A stretch of DNA of 64,000 bases, taken from assembly GCA_018057455.1 (NCBI GenBank), contig JAGPDT010000007.1, positions 1 through 64,000 of the forward strand, written 5' to 3'. The position numbers and the translations under genes are program-made. Source of the DNA: Flavobacteriales bacterium. Its GTDB lineage: Bacteria; Bacteroidota; Bacteroidia; Flavobacteriales_F; PHOS-HE28. The notes under the pieces are model-generated. The model worked only from the letters and a program-made list of their open reading frames with translations. It was not told the origin of the DNA and did no database searches. Positions 32,966 to 43,500 of the stretch are shown one piece after another (position 1 is the stretch's first letter; each line of letters begins with the position of its first letter).

Positions 32966-33925
32966 TTATGCAATGATGAAGTGGCTGCTGATGCTTTCGT
33001 GGTGCCGTACGCGCTGGATGACGTCGGCGAACAACTGCGCCACGGACAGTTGTTTGATCTTGGGTGCCGCCTCCAACTTCGAAGCGGGCACCGGAATGGT
33101 GTCGGTCACTACAAGTTCAAGGAGCTTGCTCTCCTGGATGCGCTGGCACGCTTCACCGCTGAGCACGGCGTGGGTGCACATGGCCCGCACGCTGCTGGCG
33201 CCCTGCTCCACCATCATGGCGGCCGCCTTGGTCAGTGTGCCTGCCGTATCCACCATGTCGTCCACCAGGATCACGTTCTTCCCCGCCACATCACCGATCA
33301 CGGTCATGCTCTCCACTTTGTTGGCCACCTTGCGCTGCTTGTAGCAGATGGCCATGTCCACCCCCAAATGTTTGGCGTAGGCGTTGGCGCGCTTGGTCCC
33401 CCCGGTATCGGGTGCGGCCATCACCAACTCGGGCAGGTTCATTCCTTGGATGTGCGGGAGGAAGATGCTGCTGGCGAACAGGTGGTCCACAGGCACCTCG
33501 AAAAATCCTTGGATCTGGTCGGCGTGCAGGTCCATGGTCATGATCCGGTCCACACCTGCCGCCGTAAGCATGTTGGCCACTAGTTTGGCCCCGATGCTCA
33601 CCCGGGGCTTGTCCTTGCGGTCCTGCCGTGCAAAGCCGAAATAGGGGATCACCGCAACGATCCGCTTGGCGCTGGCGCGCTTGGCGGCATCCACCATCAG
33701 CAACAGCTCGAAGAGGTTGTCGCTGGGTGGCATGGTGCTTTGCACGATGAAGACCACATTGCCCCGGACGGTCTCCTCAAAACTCGGCTGGAACTCCCCG
33801 TCGCTGAACCGGCTCACGGAGACTTCACCCAGCTTTTGCCCGCCCACCATGGCCATGTGCTTGGCCAGTTGCAGGGTGGCGGTGCCGCCGAAGATCTTGG
33901 CGCTGTCGTAGTGGCCTTGGTCCAT
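32966..33925 (-). CDS. prs: Ribose-phosphate pyrophosphokinase
   Basis: Makes PRPP from ribose 5-phosphate and ATP for nucleotide, His and Trp synthesis. At 319 residues it is standard. It has SVSRFSDGEFQPSF near the N-terminus, the ATP-site segment FGFARQDRK, the flexible-loop region and the PRPP signature NVILVDDMVDTAGTLTKAA. The ATG at 33925 gives the normal N-terminus (DSAKIFGGTATLQLA) and lies 30 bases after a strong promoter. The longer open frame upstream crosses that promoter and the divergent rnr leader, so it is not used. Confidence 0.96.
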   Translation of the reverse strand: MDQGHYDSAKIFGGTATLQLAKHMAMVGGQKLGEVSVSRFSDGEFQPSFEETVRGNVVFIVQSTMPPSDNLFELLLMVDAAKRASAKRIVAVIPYFGFARQDRKDKPRVSIGAKLVANMLTAAGVDRIMTMDLHADQIQGFFEVPVDHLFASSIFLPHIQGMNLPELVMAAPDTGGTKRANAYAKHLGVDMAICYKQRKVANKVESMTVIGDVAGKNVILVDDMVDTAGTLTKAAAMMVEQGASSVRAMCTHAVLSGEACQRIQESKLLELVVTDTIPVPASKLEAAPKIKQLSVAQLFADVIQRVRHHESISSHFIIA

Positions 33926-33955
33926 CTTGAGGGAGGTGATGCCCAAAAAGGGCTG

Positions 33956-33985
33956 CAAATGTAATGCGGAATGGCCGGTTATCAA
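33956..33985 (-). promoter_or_regulatory. Full promoter for the prs operon
   Basis: On the reverse strand TTG (33985-33983) and TACATTTG (33963-33956) are separated by exactly 19 bases. This matches the Bacteroidota primary sigma factor consensus TTTG-N19-TAnnTTTG, and it is one of the two best promoters in the window. The -33 TTG lies inside a 16-bp palindrome. Confidence 0.75.
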
Positions 33986-33996
33986 CGATCGTTGAT
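33981..33996. promoter_or_regulatory. Perfect 16-bp palindrome in the prs/rnr divergent promoter
   Basis: ATCAACGATCGTTGAT is its own reverse complement. It covers the -33 region of the prs promoter and lies 66 bases before the rnr start. The position suits a dimeric regulator that could control one or both genes. The protein is unknown. Confidence 0.5.
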
Positions 33997-34047
33997 GGAA
34001 CTTCACGGCCCGCCTCAATTTAACCCGATGGCCCCACATTTCTTTTC

Positions 34048-34055
34048 CACCTTCG
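34048..34055 (+). promoter_or_regulatory. Near-match -7 element for rnr
   Basis: CACCTTCG differs from TAnnTTYG at the first base. It ends six bases before the ATG at 34062, which would give a very short leader. Confidence 0.35.
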
Positions 34056-34061
34056 CCTCCC

Positions 34062-36383
34062 ATGAAGAAAAAGCGCCTACAGCAAACTGATGTACTCTCC
34101 CAGCAGGCCGTACTGGCCTTGTTGTTGAATGCCGGACCTGCCGGGATCACAGCGCAGCAGCTCATGCTGAAGCTCGGGTTGGAAAAGCGGGAACGCGGCG
34201 CCCTGCAGGCCACCCTGGCCGGTCTGATCTCCAAAGGGAAAGCCGTGAGCAGCCCCCAGGGACGCTTTGCGGCGGTGACCCCGGCAGAAAAGGGTATGGA
34301 CAAGAAGTTGGCCGGGGAGGAGGCTACCCTGGAACTGATCGCCAGCGGGGCGGGTTTTGCCCGAATGGCCGATGGTGGGGAGGATGTCTTCATTCCCGAC
34401 CACGCCTTGGGCACGGCGTTGCACGGAGACCGGGTCCTCATCCGCGTCCAAAGCGGGCGTGGCCGTCCTGAAGGCAAGGTCCTCCAGGTGTTGGAGCGCC
34501 GCCGTACCCGCTTTGTGGGCAAAGTGGAGAAAAAGGGCCATCAATTCGTGCTCAACGCCGACGACCCGAAAATGAACCGCCCCTTGCTGATCGCGCCTGC
34601 CGATCTGCTGGGGGCCAACATGGGCGAGAAGGTGATCGCCGTAATGTCCCCATGGACCAACCCCGCGGAGATGCCCCGTTGCGCCGTGTTGCGCGTGCTG
34701 GGCAAGGCCGGTGTACATGAAGTGGAAATCCACGCCATCCTCGCGGAATTCGACCTGCCGGCAGAATTTCCCGCTGGTGTGGAAGAGGCTGCCGAGGCCA
34801 TCCCTTCCGGGATCAACAAGGCCGAGATCGCACAGCGGCGCGACCTAAGGGCCATCACCACCCTCACCATCGACCCGGAGGACGCCAAAGACCTGGACGA
34901 TGCCCTTAGTATTCGCAGGCTCGACAATGGAAACTGGGAAGTGGGCGTCCATATAGCCGATGTCAGCCACTATGTGCGCCCCGGAACCGTGGTGGACAAC
35001 GAGGCGGCTGCACGGGCCACCAGTGTGTACTTGGTTGACCGTGTGGTGCCCATGCTGCCCGAACGCCTCAGCAACAACCTGTGTTCGCTGAACCCCGACG
35101 AGGATAAACTCAGCTTCAGCGCAATCTTTGAAATGGACGCCCACGCCCGGATACGGGCCGAATGGTTCGGGCGCACCATCATGCGCAGCAACCGGCGTTT
35201 CGCGTATGCCCAGGCGCAATCCATCATCGACGGTGGTGAAGGTGAATACAAGACGGAAGTGCTCGCCCTGTATGAACTCTCGAAGGTCCTACGCAAGGAA
35301 CGCATGGAGAACGGGGCGCTCGAAGTAGGGGGCAACGAAGTGAAGTTCCGCCTCGATGATAAAGGCCGTCCGGTGGAGGTCTATGAAAAGGTGATGGGCC
35401 CTGCCAACTGGCTCATTGAGGAGTTCATGCTGCTGGCCAACAAGCAGGTGGCGGCGGCCATCAGCCGGCGGAAGAATGGCGCCCCCCCCTTTGTATACCG
35501 CATCCACGACCTGCCCGACCCCGAAAAGGTGCAGCAGTTGCGCATGCTCGCCAAAAGCTTCGGCCACGAACTGAAGACCGATGGGCGCCCGGAAGAGCTG
35601 CCCAAGGCCATCAATGCGTTGATGCGCCGGATCAAGGGCAGCGAGGAGGAGAACATCCTCAAGCAGCTCACCATACGGGCCATGAGCAAAGCCATCTACA
35701 GCACCGACAACATCGGCCATTATGGCCTGGCCTTCCGCGACTACACCCACTTCACCAGTCCCATACGCCGCTACCCTGACCTATTGGTGCATCGTGCCAT
35801 GGCGCACTACCTCGCCGGCGGAAAACCGCTGGACAAAAAGAAGCTCGAACTGAGCTGTGTGCATAGCTCACAAATGGAAAAACGCGCTGCCGATGCCGAG
35901 CGGGCCAGCATCAAGTTCAAACAGGCCGAATACCTGCTTGAACGGGTGGGGCGCACCTACACAGGCATCGTCAGCGGCCTTACCACCTGGGGGTTGTACG
36001 TGGAGCTGTCGGAGAACAAATGCGAAGGCATGATCGCCCTGCGCGACCTGCCCGGCGACCACTTCTCCTTCATCCAGGAGCTCTACACGGTGAAAGGCCA
36101 GCGCACCGGGCGCCGTTTCCGTTTGGGAGACGAACTGATTGTGATGGTACGGAGCGTGGACATGGAAAAGCGTACCGCGGACTTCTCCTTGGTTGAAGAA
36201 GACCGGCCGAATACGCCCGGTCCGCGACCATCGAAGGGGTTGTGGGATGAGGTGCGCCCCACCCCCGCCACCAATGGCCAGCACCATCGCAAGGGCTTCC
36301 GCAGCACGGCCAAGACCTCAACCCAAGGGGCTGGCATGAAGAAGAGCAGGAAGCAAAAGGGAGCCAAGGGGAAGAAGCGCTAG
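34062..36383 (+). CDS. rnr: Ribonuclease R
   Basis: A 773-residue RNB-family 3'-5' exoribonuclease that degrades structured RNA. A winged-helix-like N-terminus (about 10-70) is followed by cold-shock domains and the RNB catalytic domain. The catalytic aspartates sit in TIDPEDAKDLDDALSIR, and the tyrosine and later motifs include HFTSPIRRYPDLLVHR. An S1 domain (about 635-715) and a basic Lys/Arg-rich tail close the protein; this tail helps unwind RNA in known RNase R. It is divergent from prs. A run of eight C occurs at 35482-35489 inside the gene. Confidence 0.95.
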   Translation: MKKKRLQQTDVLSQQAVLALLLNAGPAGITAQQLMLKLGLEKRERGALQATLAGLISKGKAVSSPQGRFAAVTPAEKGMDKKLAGEEATLELIASGAGFARMADGGEDVFIPDHALGTALHGDRVLIRVQSGRGRPEGKVLQVLERRRTRFVGKVEKKGHQFVLNADDPKMNRPLLIAPADLLGANMGEKVIAVMSPWTNPAEMPRCAVLRVLGKAGVHEVEIHAILAEFDLPAEFPAGVEEAAEAIPSGINKAEIAQRRDLRAITTLTIDPEDAKDLDDALSIRRLDNGNWEVGVHIADVSHYVRPGTVVDNEAAARATSVYLVDRVVPMLPERLSNNLCSLNPDEDKLSFSAIFEMDAHARIRAEWFGRTIMRSNRRFAYAQAQSIIDGGEGEYKTEVLALYELSKVLRKERMENGALEVGGNEVKFRLDDKGRPVEVYEKVMGPANWLIEEFMLLANKQVAAAISRRKNGAPPFVYRIHDLPDPEKVQQLRMLAKSFGHELKTDGRPEELPKAINALMRRIKGSEEENILKQLTIRAMSKAIYSTDNIGHYGLAFRDYTHFTSPIRRYPDLLVHRAMAHYLAGGKPLDKKKLELSCVHSSQMEKRAADAERASIKFKQAEYLLERVGRTYTGIVSGLTTWGLYVELSENKCEGMIALRDLPGDHFSFIQELYTVKGQRTGRRFRLGDELIVMVRSVDMEKRTADFSLVEEDRPNTPGPRPSKGLWDEVRPTPATNGQHHRKGFRSTAKTSTQGAGMKKSRKQKGAKGKKR

Positions 36384-41140: not shown

Positions 41141-42649
41141 TCAAGGGGTGAAGCTGGTCGGCAAGTAAGGTGGCGGCAACCTCTCTTCGTTCAATTTCAT
41201 TTCGCTGCCATCCTTGTAACGGATCGTTAGCTGGAGCGTTCCATTCTCATCGAAATGGTTGAAATCCCCTTGTTCCAAACCCGCGGTGTACTTCCCTTCC
41301 AACTTCAGCCTCCCATTGGGCCAGTACCATTTGTGCCGCCCGTTCCGCTCACCGGCCACATAGGTTCCGCTGAAGTACTTCCGGCCGTTGTCATAGGTGC
41401 TGGTCCATGGACCATCCCGCAGACCATCCTTATAAGCGCCCTTGTCCGTGTGGCCACCTATGTGGTAGGTCCAAGCGCCATCCTTCAAGCCATCGATGTA
41501 TTTGCCCTCCACGATCACGGACCCATCCGGTTCCAATTCCACTGAGGCCCCATCCTCCTTGCCTTTGCGGTAATATTCTTCCCGGTGCAGTTCTCCGGTG
41601 GTGTAGTACCATTTCCACTCCCCTTGGGGCAATCCGTCGCGGTAGGTTCCTTTCTGTTCCACCTCTCCCATGCGGTGGTAAAAAGTCCATGGGCCGTCCT
41701 TCTTGCCATTCAGGTAAGTGCCTTCCGCCCGTTTCTCACCCGTACCATAGTACTCCGTCCAAGAGCCGTTCATGGCTCCGGCCTCGCTGAGCGGGCCTGA
41801 ACCCACCAGGATCGATCCCCGGTAGATGGCCGCGTCCATAGGAATACCTCCTTCACTGAAATTGCGGAACAATCCCTCCTTGCGCCCATCCCGTGCGTAA
41901 CTCCCAATACTGGCCACCCCCCCATTGGCATGGTAGGTGTTCCTGATGTCCAGCAGCATGGTCTCCTGGGCATCGGCGAGCAAGGAATCCCCATCATACT
42001 TGTTCAATTCCAACAGGTTGCCTTGTTTGTCATAGTACTTGAACAAGCCTTGCCTACGGTCGTCCACATACCGGCCCTCCCATTGTAGCCTTCCCGATGG
42101 ATAGTACCCTTGCCATGGCCCTTGGCGAAGGCCATTTCCGTCATACCGGTTGATTTCTTGCCGCCGCTGCAACACACCGGCCCGCCATTCCGTAATGGTG
42201 ATCGGGCGGCCATCCTCGGCATACCCATAAGCCTTCCCTTCCTCCCTGCCCTCCTTGAAGGAGACCTGGCTCTCTACTTTCCCATTCGCGTGGAATGTCC
42301 GGCTTAAGCCATCCCTCATGTCATTCTCATACTGCTCCTCGCCTACTAATGCACCATCCGCTCCAAACTTCCGGGAAGGCCCGTTCTTTTTACCCATGGC
42401 ATACGCAATGGTGTTGGTCAACGCACCAGCCGGATCATAAAAGGACCAAGTACCGGTGAGCTCGAAATGCAGGCGGTCACCTTCGCTCTTCAAGGTACCG
42501 TCCGGGTAATAGGTCCTCCAGCGGCCCTCGGGCTTGCCGTCCACCAGGTATCCCTCACTGCTGACCTGTCCATCGGGATAAAGGTACTGTTTCAGCATGC
42601 CTTCGCTCTGTGCCCAAGCATGGCCAACACACACGATGCATAGTATCAT
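41141..42649 (-). CDS. Secreted MORN-repeat protein
   Basis: A 502-residue exported protein made almost wholly of about 20 MORN-type repeats of 20-24 residues, each like DGLRQGPWQGYYPSGRLQWEG. The signal peptide is MILCIVCVGHAWAQ. The tandem repeats should form an elongated beta-hairpin ribbon. Related Bacteroidota proteins are labelled YwqK-like, but that link to antitoxins is weak and I do not accept it. It lies 22 bases upstream of the six-PAS kinase gene in the same direction, so it may be its input or partner. Confidence 0.85.
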   Translation of the reverse strand: MILCIVCVGHAWAQSEGMLKQYLYPDGQVSSEGYLVDGKPEGRWRTYYPDGTLKSEGDRLHFELTGTWSFYDPAGALTNTIAYAMGKKNGPSRKFGADGALVGEEQYENDMRDGLSRTFHANGKVESQVSFKEGREEGKAYGYAEDGRPITITEWRAGVLQRRQEINRYDGNGLRQGPWQGYYPSGRLQWEGRYVDDRRQGLFKYYDKQGNLLELNKYDGDSLLADAQETMLLDIRNTYHANGGVASIGSYARDGRKEGLFRNFSEGGIPMDAAIYRGSILVGSGPLSEAGAMNGSWTEYYGTGEKRAEGTYLNGKKDGPWTFYHRMGEVEQKGTYRDGLPQGEWKWYYTTGELHREEYYRKGKEDGASVELEPDGSVIVEGKYIDGLKDGAWTYHIGGHTDKGAYKDGLRDGPWTSTYDNGRKYFSGTYVAGERNGRHKWYWPNGRLKLEGKYTAGLEQGDFNHFDENGTLQLTIRYKDGSEMKLNEERLPPPYLPTSFTP

Positions 42650-43019
42650 CAATACTTCTTTTAAAAGATGATGATATAGTATAGGGTGTTGATGGTGTTG
42701 ATCAACGGTGCGGGGCGAAGGGGCCATGCGGGGTTCCGAAAATTCTTCAACAGGGTTTCAACGGGAGGGTTGAACGGCTGGTATCCAAGCCTGCGTGAAG
42801 ATACGGGCCATTCGCGGGTGTCGGGCCAACGATCGTGCAAAAGGCGCGCCACGGCTCTTGTGGATGGAATGTGCGGATCGGGAAGCGGTCCGGGATCGTT
42901 GGTTGGCTGTGGGTAACATGTGATGGGCGATTCTTGCTTTCCACCAAGATCCGTATATGCGGAGTTGGGTGCCAAAGTCCTTGAAATAGTGATGGAAAGT
43001 TGTACACGGGATAACTCGG

Positions 43020-43028
43020 TTATCCACA
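43020..43028 (+). promoter_or_regulatory. DnaA box
   Basis: TTATCCACA, an exact match to the high-affinity DnaA consensus, in an intergenic region and paired with an inverted half (TTATCCCGT on the other strand at 43014-43006). Confidence 0.5.
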
Positions 43029-43059
43029 CTTTCGATGTTCGATCCCGCTTCCTGCCGTG

Positions 43060-43067
43060 TATCTTTG
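43060..43067 (+). promoter_or_regulatory. Promoter -7 element for rpiB
   Basis: TATCTTTG, exact consensus. A TTC in place of TTG lies 19 bases upstream (43038-43040). Only four bases separate it from the ATG at 43072, suggesting a leaderless mRNA. Confidence 0.6.
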
Positions 43068-43071
43068 GAGC

Positions 43072-43500
43072 ATGCGCATCGCCATAGGTAGTGACCACGC
43101 GGGTTTCCGGTTGAAGGAACAAGTGATCGGGCACTTGACTGCCAAAGGGATTCAAGTGGAGGACAAGGGCACCCTTAGTGAAGAAAGCACGGACTACCCC
43201 GGGTATGCGCACGCCGTGGCCCGTTCCGTGCTTGGAGGGGACGCTGATCTGGGAATTGTGGTGTGTGGCAGCGGTAACGGAGTGAACATTACCGCCAACA
43301 AGCATGCCGGTATCCGTTCAGCCTTGGCTTGGTTGCCTGAGGTGGCGGCTCTGGCGCGGCAGCACAATGATGCCAATGTGCTTGCCTTGCCTGCCAGGTA
43401 CCTCAATGAGCAGGCAGCCAAGGCCATCGTGGATGCCTTTTTGGAGGCCGGCTTCGAAGGGGGCAGGCACCAACGCAGGGTGTCAGCCATCGAATGTTGA
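43072..43500 (+). CDS. rpiB: Ribose-5-phosphate isomerase B
   Basis: Interconverts ribulose 5-phosphate and ribose 5-phosphate, 142 residues. RpiB landmarks are intact: GSDHAGFRLKE at the N-terminus, the anion-binding and catalytic-Cys loop VVCGSGNGVNITANK, and RQHNDANVLALPARY. The start is fixed by the -7 box four bases upstream. It may be co-transcribed with the M28 peptidase that begins 18 bases later. RpiB supplies substrate for Prs, encoded 9 kb away. Confidence 0.96.
   Translation: MRIAIGSDHAGFRLKEQVIGHLTAKGIQVEDKGTLSEESTDYPGYAHAVARSVLGGDADLGIVVCGSGNGVNITANKHAGIRSALAWLPEVAALARQHNDANVLALPARYLNEQAAKAIVDAFLEAGFEGGRHQRRVSAIEC

Follow-up and report, generated by a model that had tools for sequence, protein, structure and literature searches.

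A conserved inverted pair of DnaA-box-like sequences overlaps the prs promoter in a genus of Flavobacteriales and may tie PRPP supply to replication initiation

The promoter of prs, the gene for PRPP synthase, carries an inverted dyad that is conserved throughout the genus to which the genome analysed here belongs. Laid over the -33 element of this promoter, it accompanies prs independently of the neighbouring gene rnr and closely resembles a dyad in the predicted replication origin. Since the same element lies in this predicted origin, about 9 kb away, we read the palindrome at its centre as part of a pair of DnaA sites. We propose, with a probability of roughly 0.6, that two inverted DnaA boxes spaced by 2 bp lie over the prs -33 element and lower expression of PRPP synthase around initiation; the identity of DnaA as the binder, its action on transcription and its repressive effect are all inferred from the sequence. 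The features are compiled in Table 1; the window denotes the whole stretch of 64 kb that was analysed.

Table 1. Features of the prs promoter, the predicted origin and a possible second target. Positions refer to the window unless a contig is given.
Feature	Position	Strand	Remarks
prs, ribose-phosphate pyrophosphokinase (PRPP synthase), 319 aa	32966..33925	-	Pfam PF13793/PF14572; ATG at 33925
prs -7 element TACATTTG	33956..33963	-	N19 from TTG (33985-33983)
Inverted dyad TTATCAAC-GATC-GTTGATGG	33979..33998	.	Two DnaA-like boxes 2 bp apart; encloses the 16-bp palindrome
Box 1 TTATCAACG	33979..33987	+	Strong half; exact TTWTCMACR 9-mer
prs -33 element TTG	33983..33985	-	Within box 1 (left arm of the palindrome); conserved spacing
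Box 2 CCATCAACG	33990..33998	-	Weaker half; first two bases off consensus
-7-like CACCTTCG beside rnr start	34048..34055	+	Proposed own promoter of rnr, inferred from sequence
rnr, ribonuclease R family	34062..36383	+	RNB domain PF00773; divergent neighbour of prs, independent of the dyad
Predicted oriC: AT-rich stretch (42636-42685) followed by a cluster of boxes as far as rpiB	42636..43071	.	Minimum of GC skew; density of boxes and GATC across 30 relatives
Origin copy of dyad GGGCCAACGATCGTGCAAAA	42823..42842	.	Contains box TTTTGCACG at 42834-42842 (-)
Origin boxes TTGTACACG (43000-43008) and TTATCCACA (43020-43028)	43000..43028	+	
rpiB, ribose-5-phosphate isomerase B homologue	43072..43494	+	Adjoins predicted origin
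76-aa ORF, genome of the window	G000:C86:12824-13048 (L293 1501-1725)		

The first-pass annotation of this DNA had pointed to a perfect palindrome between the divergent genes prs and rnr, overlapping the -33 TTG of a prs promoter of the form TTG-N19-TACATTTG. Both genes, their orientation and the promoter, which lies on the minus strand, were found as described. The 16-bp palindrome ATCAACGATCGTTGAT (33981-33996) has a single match in the window at up to three mismatches (0.08 expected) and a single match in the 3.3-Mb genome at up to two mismatches; this uniqueness, together with its conservation in the genus, rules out a chance palindrome. The conserved element is broader and comprises TTATCAACGATCGTTGATGG (33979-33998). 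The promoter matches the Bacteroidota primary-sigma form TTG-N19-TAnnTTTG. Where the prs transcript region begins (33940-33963), TAnnTTTGC precedes CCC and a T-rich sequence (TACATTTGCAGCCCTTTTT in the window); many other Bacteroidia show this pattern upstream of prs as well, and it perhaps serves start-site or initial-transcript control.

Other roles for the palindrome were considered and rejected. No intrinsic terminator was found at the dyad, its predicted fold is only modestly more stable than that of shuffled sequences (z -1.8), and its position upstream of the inferred prs transcript start also opposes an RNA hairpin; no known RNA family was detected near six loci examined. Nor does the spacing fit an IHF site (consensus WATCAANNNNTTR).

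For comparison, 42 prs upstream regions were available from the 45 genomes of the genus, many of which are metagenome-assembled, and 36 remained after removal of sequences more than 80% identical. As these genomes are related, the counts that follow are not independent events, and all shuffle controls are mononucleotide shuffles. The left half TTWTCMAC is present in 42/42 promoters and the right half GTKGRTRR in most of them, box 2 having been lost in a few genomes. All 42 genomes have the 9-mer TTWTCMACR no more than 150 bp upstream of prs, compared with 0.2% of shuffled sequences. The spacing between the -7 and -33 elements is 19 bp in 39 of the 42 promoters and 18 bp in the other three. In the set of 36 sequences, the left half-site carries nearly 2 bits per column and the right one 1.1-2.0 bits, and the information falls sharply to background (0-0.4 bits) in the rnr-side columns just past the edge of the dyad. 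The four central base pairs are GATC, ACCT, ACGT or AGGT, most commonly GATC; their self-complementarity is 0.88 compared with 0.52 when the halves are permuted, a difference whose p-value from permutation should not be read at face value because the sequences are related. In one genome (G025), the prs dyad TTTTCCACGATCGTGGATGG bears a matching change in both arms. The palindrome is thus retained in relatives that keep prs and rnr divergent, whose loss of it had been named beforehand as the outcome that would refute the first-pass proposal.

Outside the genus, the prs upstream regions of 60 genomes from other Bacteroidia families lack the full dyad, although the -7 box is often recognisable there. 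Single boxes of the lineage type nevertheless occur upstream of prs in 7 of these 60 genomes, against 1.2 expected, which weakly suggests that the presence of DnaA boxes at prs may extend beyond the genus. TTWTCAACR boxes, either one or two of them, were seen close to the prs -7 box in a few of the other families (L228, L232, L240 and L263).

The palindrome had originally been suggested to serve a regulator that controls prs and rnr together and thereby connects nucleotide supply with RNA recycling. The divergent order of the two genes is indeed kept in nearly all members of the genus, as joint control would favour, but the dyad is missing at rnr once the genes are apart. In G028, prs and rnr are separated by about 8 kb; the dyad TTTTCAACACCTGTTGGTGG is located at prs at the usual distance, and nothing dyad-like is found upstream of rnr. 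Similarly, the rnr gene of G035, which does not adjoin prs, has no dyad upstream. In most relatives, there is no -7 box 19-20 bp from the dyad on the rnr side, which is not conserved; rnr instead has its own -7-like box beside its ATG, at varying distance. As the dyad follows prs and is absent at the separated rnr genes, the association of prs with rnr reflects synteny and not shared control, and we regard joint regulation through this site as very unlikely. What stands of the original proposal is a two-fold-symmetric site on the prs -33 element and the plausibility of a link to another process; RNA recycling is not supported. Since the half-sites are the DnaA-box words of the origin, initiation of replication is the more likely partner process.

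The same lack of a rnr-side -7 box at 19-20 bp also bears on a regulator-free explanation, according to which the palindrome merely represents the back-to-back -33 elements of the two divergent promoters. Each arm does contain a TTG, and in the dyad at a CPBP-type gene in G008 and G026 the right TTG is situated 19 bp from TATCTTCG. The conserved letters, however, reach well past both TTGs, and the same 20-mer core is found in origins and in G004 and G032 without such promoters, so that we consider this explanation the least probable of all.

The origin came into view when a genus-wide pattern search returned further copies of the motif upstream of rpiB in G017 and G042. In the window, the cumulative GC skew reaches its minimum at 42658, inside the AT-rich stretch 42636-42685, and in 30 genomes the sequence upstream of rpiB is dense in DnaA-box-like 9-mers and GATC. 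With a box cluster, an AT-rich stretch and the skew minimum coinciding, we predict that 42.63-43.07 kb is the chromosomal oriC; dnaA itself is encoded on another contig of this genome (G000:C75). Across the 30 predicted origins, TTWTNAACR is as strongly enriched as TTWTNCACR, each about 100-fold relative to a control of 400 kb sampled from G010 (a genome whose skew samples are noisy), and at position 6 of the box G is rare and T absent. The DnaA box of the lineage is therefore probably TTWTNMACR, with which box 1, TTATCAACG, agrees, whereas the Escherichia coli consensus TTWTNCACA has C at position 6 (PMC7561715). Compared with the E. coli contact residues, DnaA of the genus retains R399, D433, H434, T436 and H439 and carries the changes P423A, R432K and T435A; of 26 readable Bacteroidia, 18 have the motif KDHAT, this genus among them, and seven have RDHST. 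In Epsilonproteobacteria, changes in the same DnaA helix accompany an altered box preference (PMC5043019), and by analogy the changes seen here may explain the A at position 6.

The likeness of the prs dyad to the origin was assessed in two ways. The words that make up the palindrome are those enriched in the origins: AACGATCG 221-fold, CAACGATC 138-fold and TATCAAC 99-fold. A word score trained on the origins of other genomes, with those of the window and of its nearest relative left out, places the prs dyad second among all 20-mers of the window, to which these ranks apply; rank 1 is an AT-rich stretch of the origin, ranks 1, 4 and 5 all fall within the predicted origin of the window, and none of five shuffles reaches the score of the prs dyad. 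In addition, the inverted dyad found at prs is present in 29 of the 30 predicted origins: the composite NNWTSMACGATCGTKSAWNN scores at least 14 out of 16 in 29/30 origins compared with 0.7% of shuffles, a score that is partly by construction because the composite was drawn up after these origins had been viewed. Its matches in the origins are nearly always positioned 245-275 bp before rpiB; within the window, the prs dyad scores highest (16), followed by the copy in the origin at 42823 (14). Of the two measures, the word score is the more independent test.

Half-sites shared with the origin might also be bound by a dimeric transcription factor other than DnaA that recognises TTATCAAC-N4-GTTGRTRR at prs and at the origin. 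Two-fold symmetry and a fixed 4-bp centre are typical of dimeric helix-turn-helix regulators, GATC is the commonest centre, and the origins are GATC-rich. The half-sites of the origins, on the other hand, vary as DnaA boxes do (TTTTGCACG, TTATGCACG and TTATCCACA), and at a 76-aa ORF described below 15 bp take the place of the 4-bp centre; we therefore judge a different dimer unlikely. Another explanation accepts the half-sites as DnaA boxes and assigns them to origin-proximal titration or nucleotide exchange of DnaA, as at datA or DARS, the location in the prs promoter being fortuitous. The distance of prs from the rpiB start, 8.1-9.3 kb in 24 of the 26 genomes that have both on one contig, would suit such a function, as would the accumulation of E. 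coli boxes near oriC, where they titrate DnaA (PMC12371093). However, there is a single pair of boxes at prs, titration has no need for a lock of 18-19 bp to the prs -7 box, and in G028 the dyad goes with prs; a titration site is thus improbable as well, to much the same degree. Like the prs pair, datA and DARS are DnaA boxes outside oriC, and datA is near it, but they are box clusters with IHF sites (PMC5742627), as opposed to a single pair fused to a promoter; the prs/rnr intergenic region contains just this one pair, where at least three clustered boxes characterise datA and DARS.

Control of prs by DnaA has closer parallels among promoters. In E. coli, DnaA recognises paired boxes, often with one weak member, that are separated by 2 or 3 bp, and its targets include the nucleotide-synthesis genes purH, nrdA and nrdD as well as the RNase gene rne (PMC11317965). 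The prs pair resembles the double boxes of purH, nrdA and nrdD in that a strong and a weak 9-mer, here 2 bp apart, lie upstream of a nucleotide-synthesis gene; it differs in being inverted and not tandem, in its target, prs, in belonging to a box type that prefers A or C at position 6 and in that its binding by DnaA is predicted (PMC11317965). For nrdAB and the gua operon of E. coli, the initiator has been proposed from experiments to limit nucleotide-precursor genes by promoter occlusion (PMC8203912), as we suggest for prs from sequence, although later ChIP-seq in E. coli did not find DnaA binding within guaB (PMC11317965). In Staphylococcus aureus, prs is likewise regulated together with replication initiation through control of dnaA and prs by WalR (PMC10746227), a two-component regulator, whereas the initiator itself is proposed to act here.

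Because the dyad covers the -33 element, a protein bound to it should hinder the polymerase. Before initiation, DnaA would occupy both half-sites, the ATP form most strongly, and block contact of the sigma factor with the -33 region, so that prs expression would be lowered when DnaA-ATP is high; upon inactivation of DnaA after initiation, prs would be released as the forks need nucleotides. Repression by DnaA-ATP before initiation, which parallels nrdAB (PMC8203912), is the simplest reading, but DnaA may instead activate prs. Several observations count against this reading: box 2 deviates from the consensus, the lineage box was not found at the dnaA promoter in the 10 genomes checked, the boxes are inverted and not tandem as in E. 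coli, the dyad is absent at prs of other Bacteroidia, and DnaA of the genus differs from the E. coli protein at three contact positions.

Further copies of the motif were sought as well: the 16-bp palindrome was not found elsewhere in the genome of the window at up to two mismatches, and in the genus exact TTATCAAC-N4-GTTG is almost confined to prs, the few other places being a 76-aa ORF, a CPBP gene, rpiB with the origin, and dnaX/rpsF. Downstream of an mltD-like gene, 41 of the 45 genomes contain the 76-aa ORF; in 23 of 26 cases, a lineage box precedes it by no more than 150 bp, compared with 1.2% in shuffles. Its inverted half-sites are spaced by 15 bp in 14 genomes, by 16 bp in the genome of the window and by 4 bp in G004 and G032, while a further group has the everted arrangement GTTGATAATTCAAC. 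The difference between spacers of 4 and 15 bp is close to one helical turn, in line with a requirement for two protomers on the same face of the DNA. The encoded protein is conserved and without a Pfam match; its structural model, of good confidence, shows weak likeness to small Sm/Hfq-like beta-barrels, with no match at E ≤0.001. This ORF is a possible second target of DnaA. In one relative, a dyad TATCAACAGCTGTTGATG lies between the divergent genes dnaX and rpsF (G010:C1:264484; L339 about 2000). In G008 and G026 (L155 and L158, about 3001), the dyad TTATCAAC-N4-GTTGACAA with its right TTG and TATCTTCG likely forms the promoter of the CPBP (Rce1-like) membrane-protease gene; it is not kept outside this small clade.

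The open-access literature, outside which many papers lie, yielded nothing direct on DnaA with prs or on DnaA boxes of Bacteroidota, and the parts of it that we searched describe no DnaA regulon for the phylum; judged against these papers, prs appears to be new as a DnaA target, as do the inverted arrangement and the clade. A more far-reaching version of our proposal, to which we give slightly less than even odds, is that the origin-signature dyad on the prs promoter allows the ATP/ADP cycle of DnaA to set directly the supply of PRPP, from which all nucleotides derive, and that inverted pairs, spaced by 2 bp or one helical turn longer, are the transcriptional DnaA sites of this lineage. For an uncultured clade, the analysis provides a predicted oriC together with a box consensus, and it puts forward helically phased inverted DnaA pairs as an arrangement for testing. 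It suggests that this bacterium couples the supply of nucleotide precursors to the start of replication. If so, control by DnaA would extend from ribonucleotide reductase, the last step of DNA-precursor synthesis and a target known in E. coli, to the entry point at PRPP, and prs would present a testable case of how growth metabolism is wired to replication timing.
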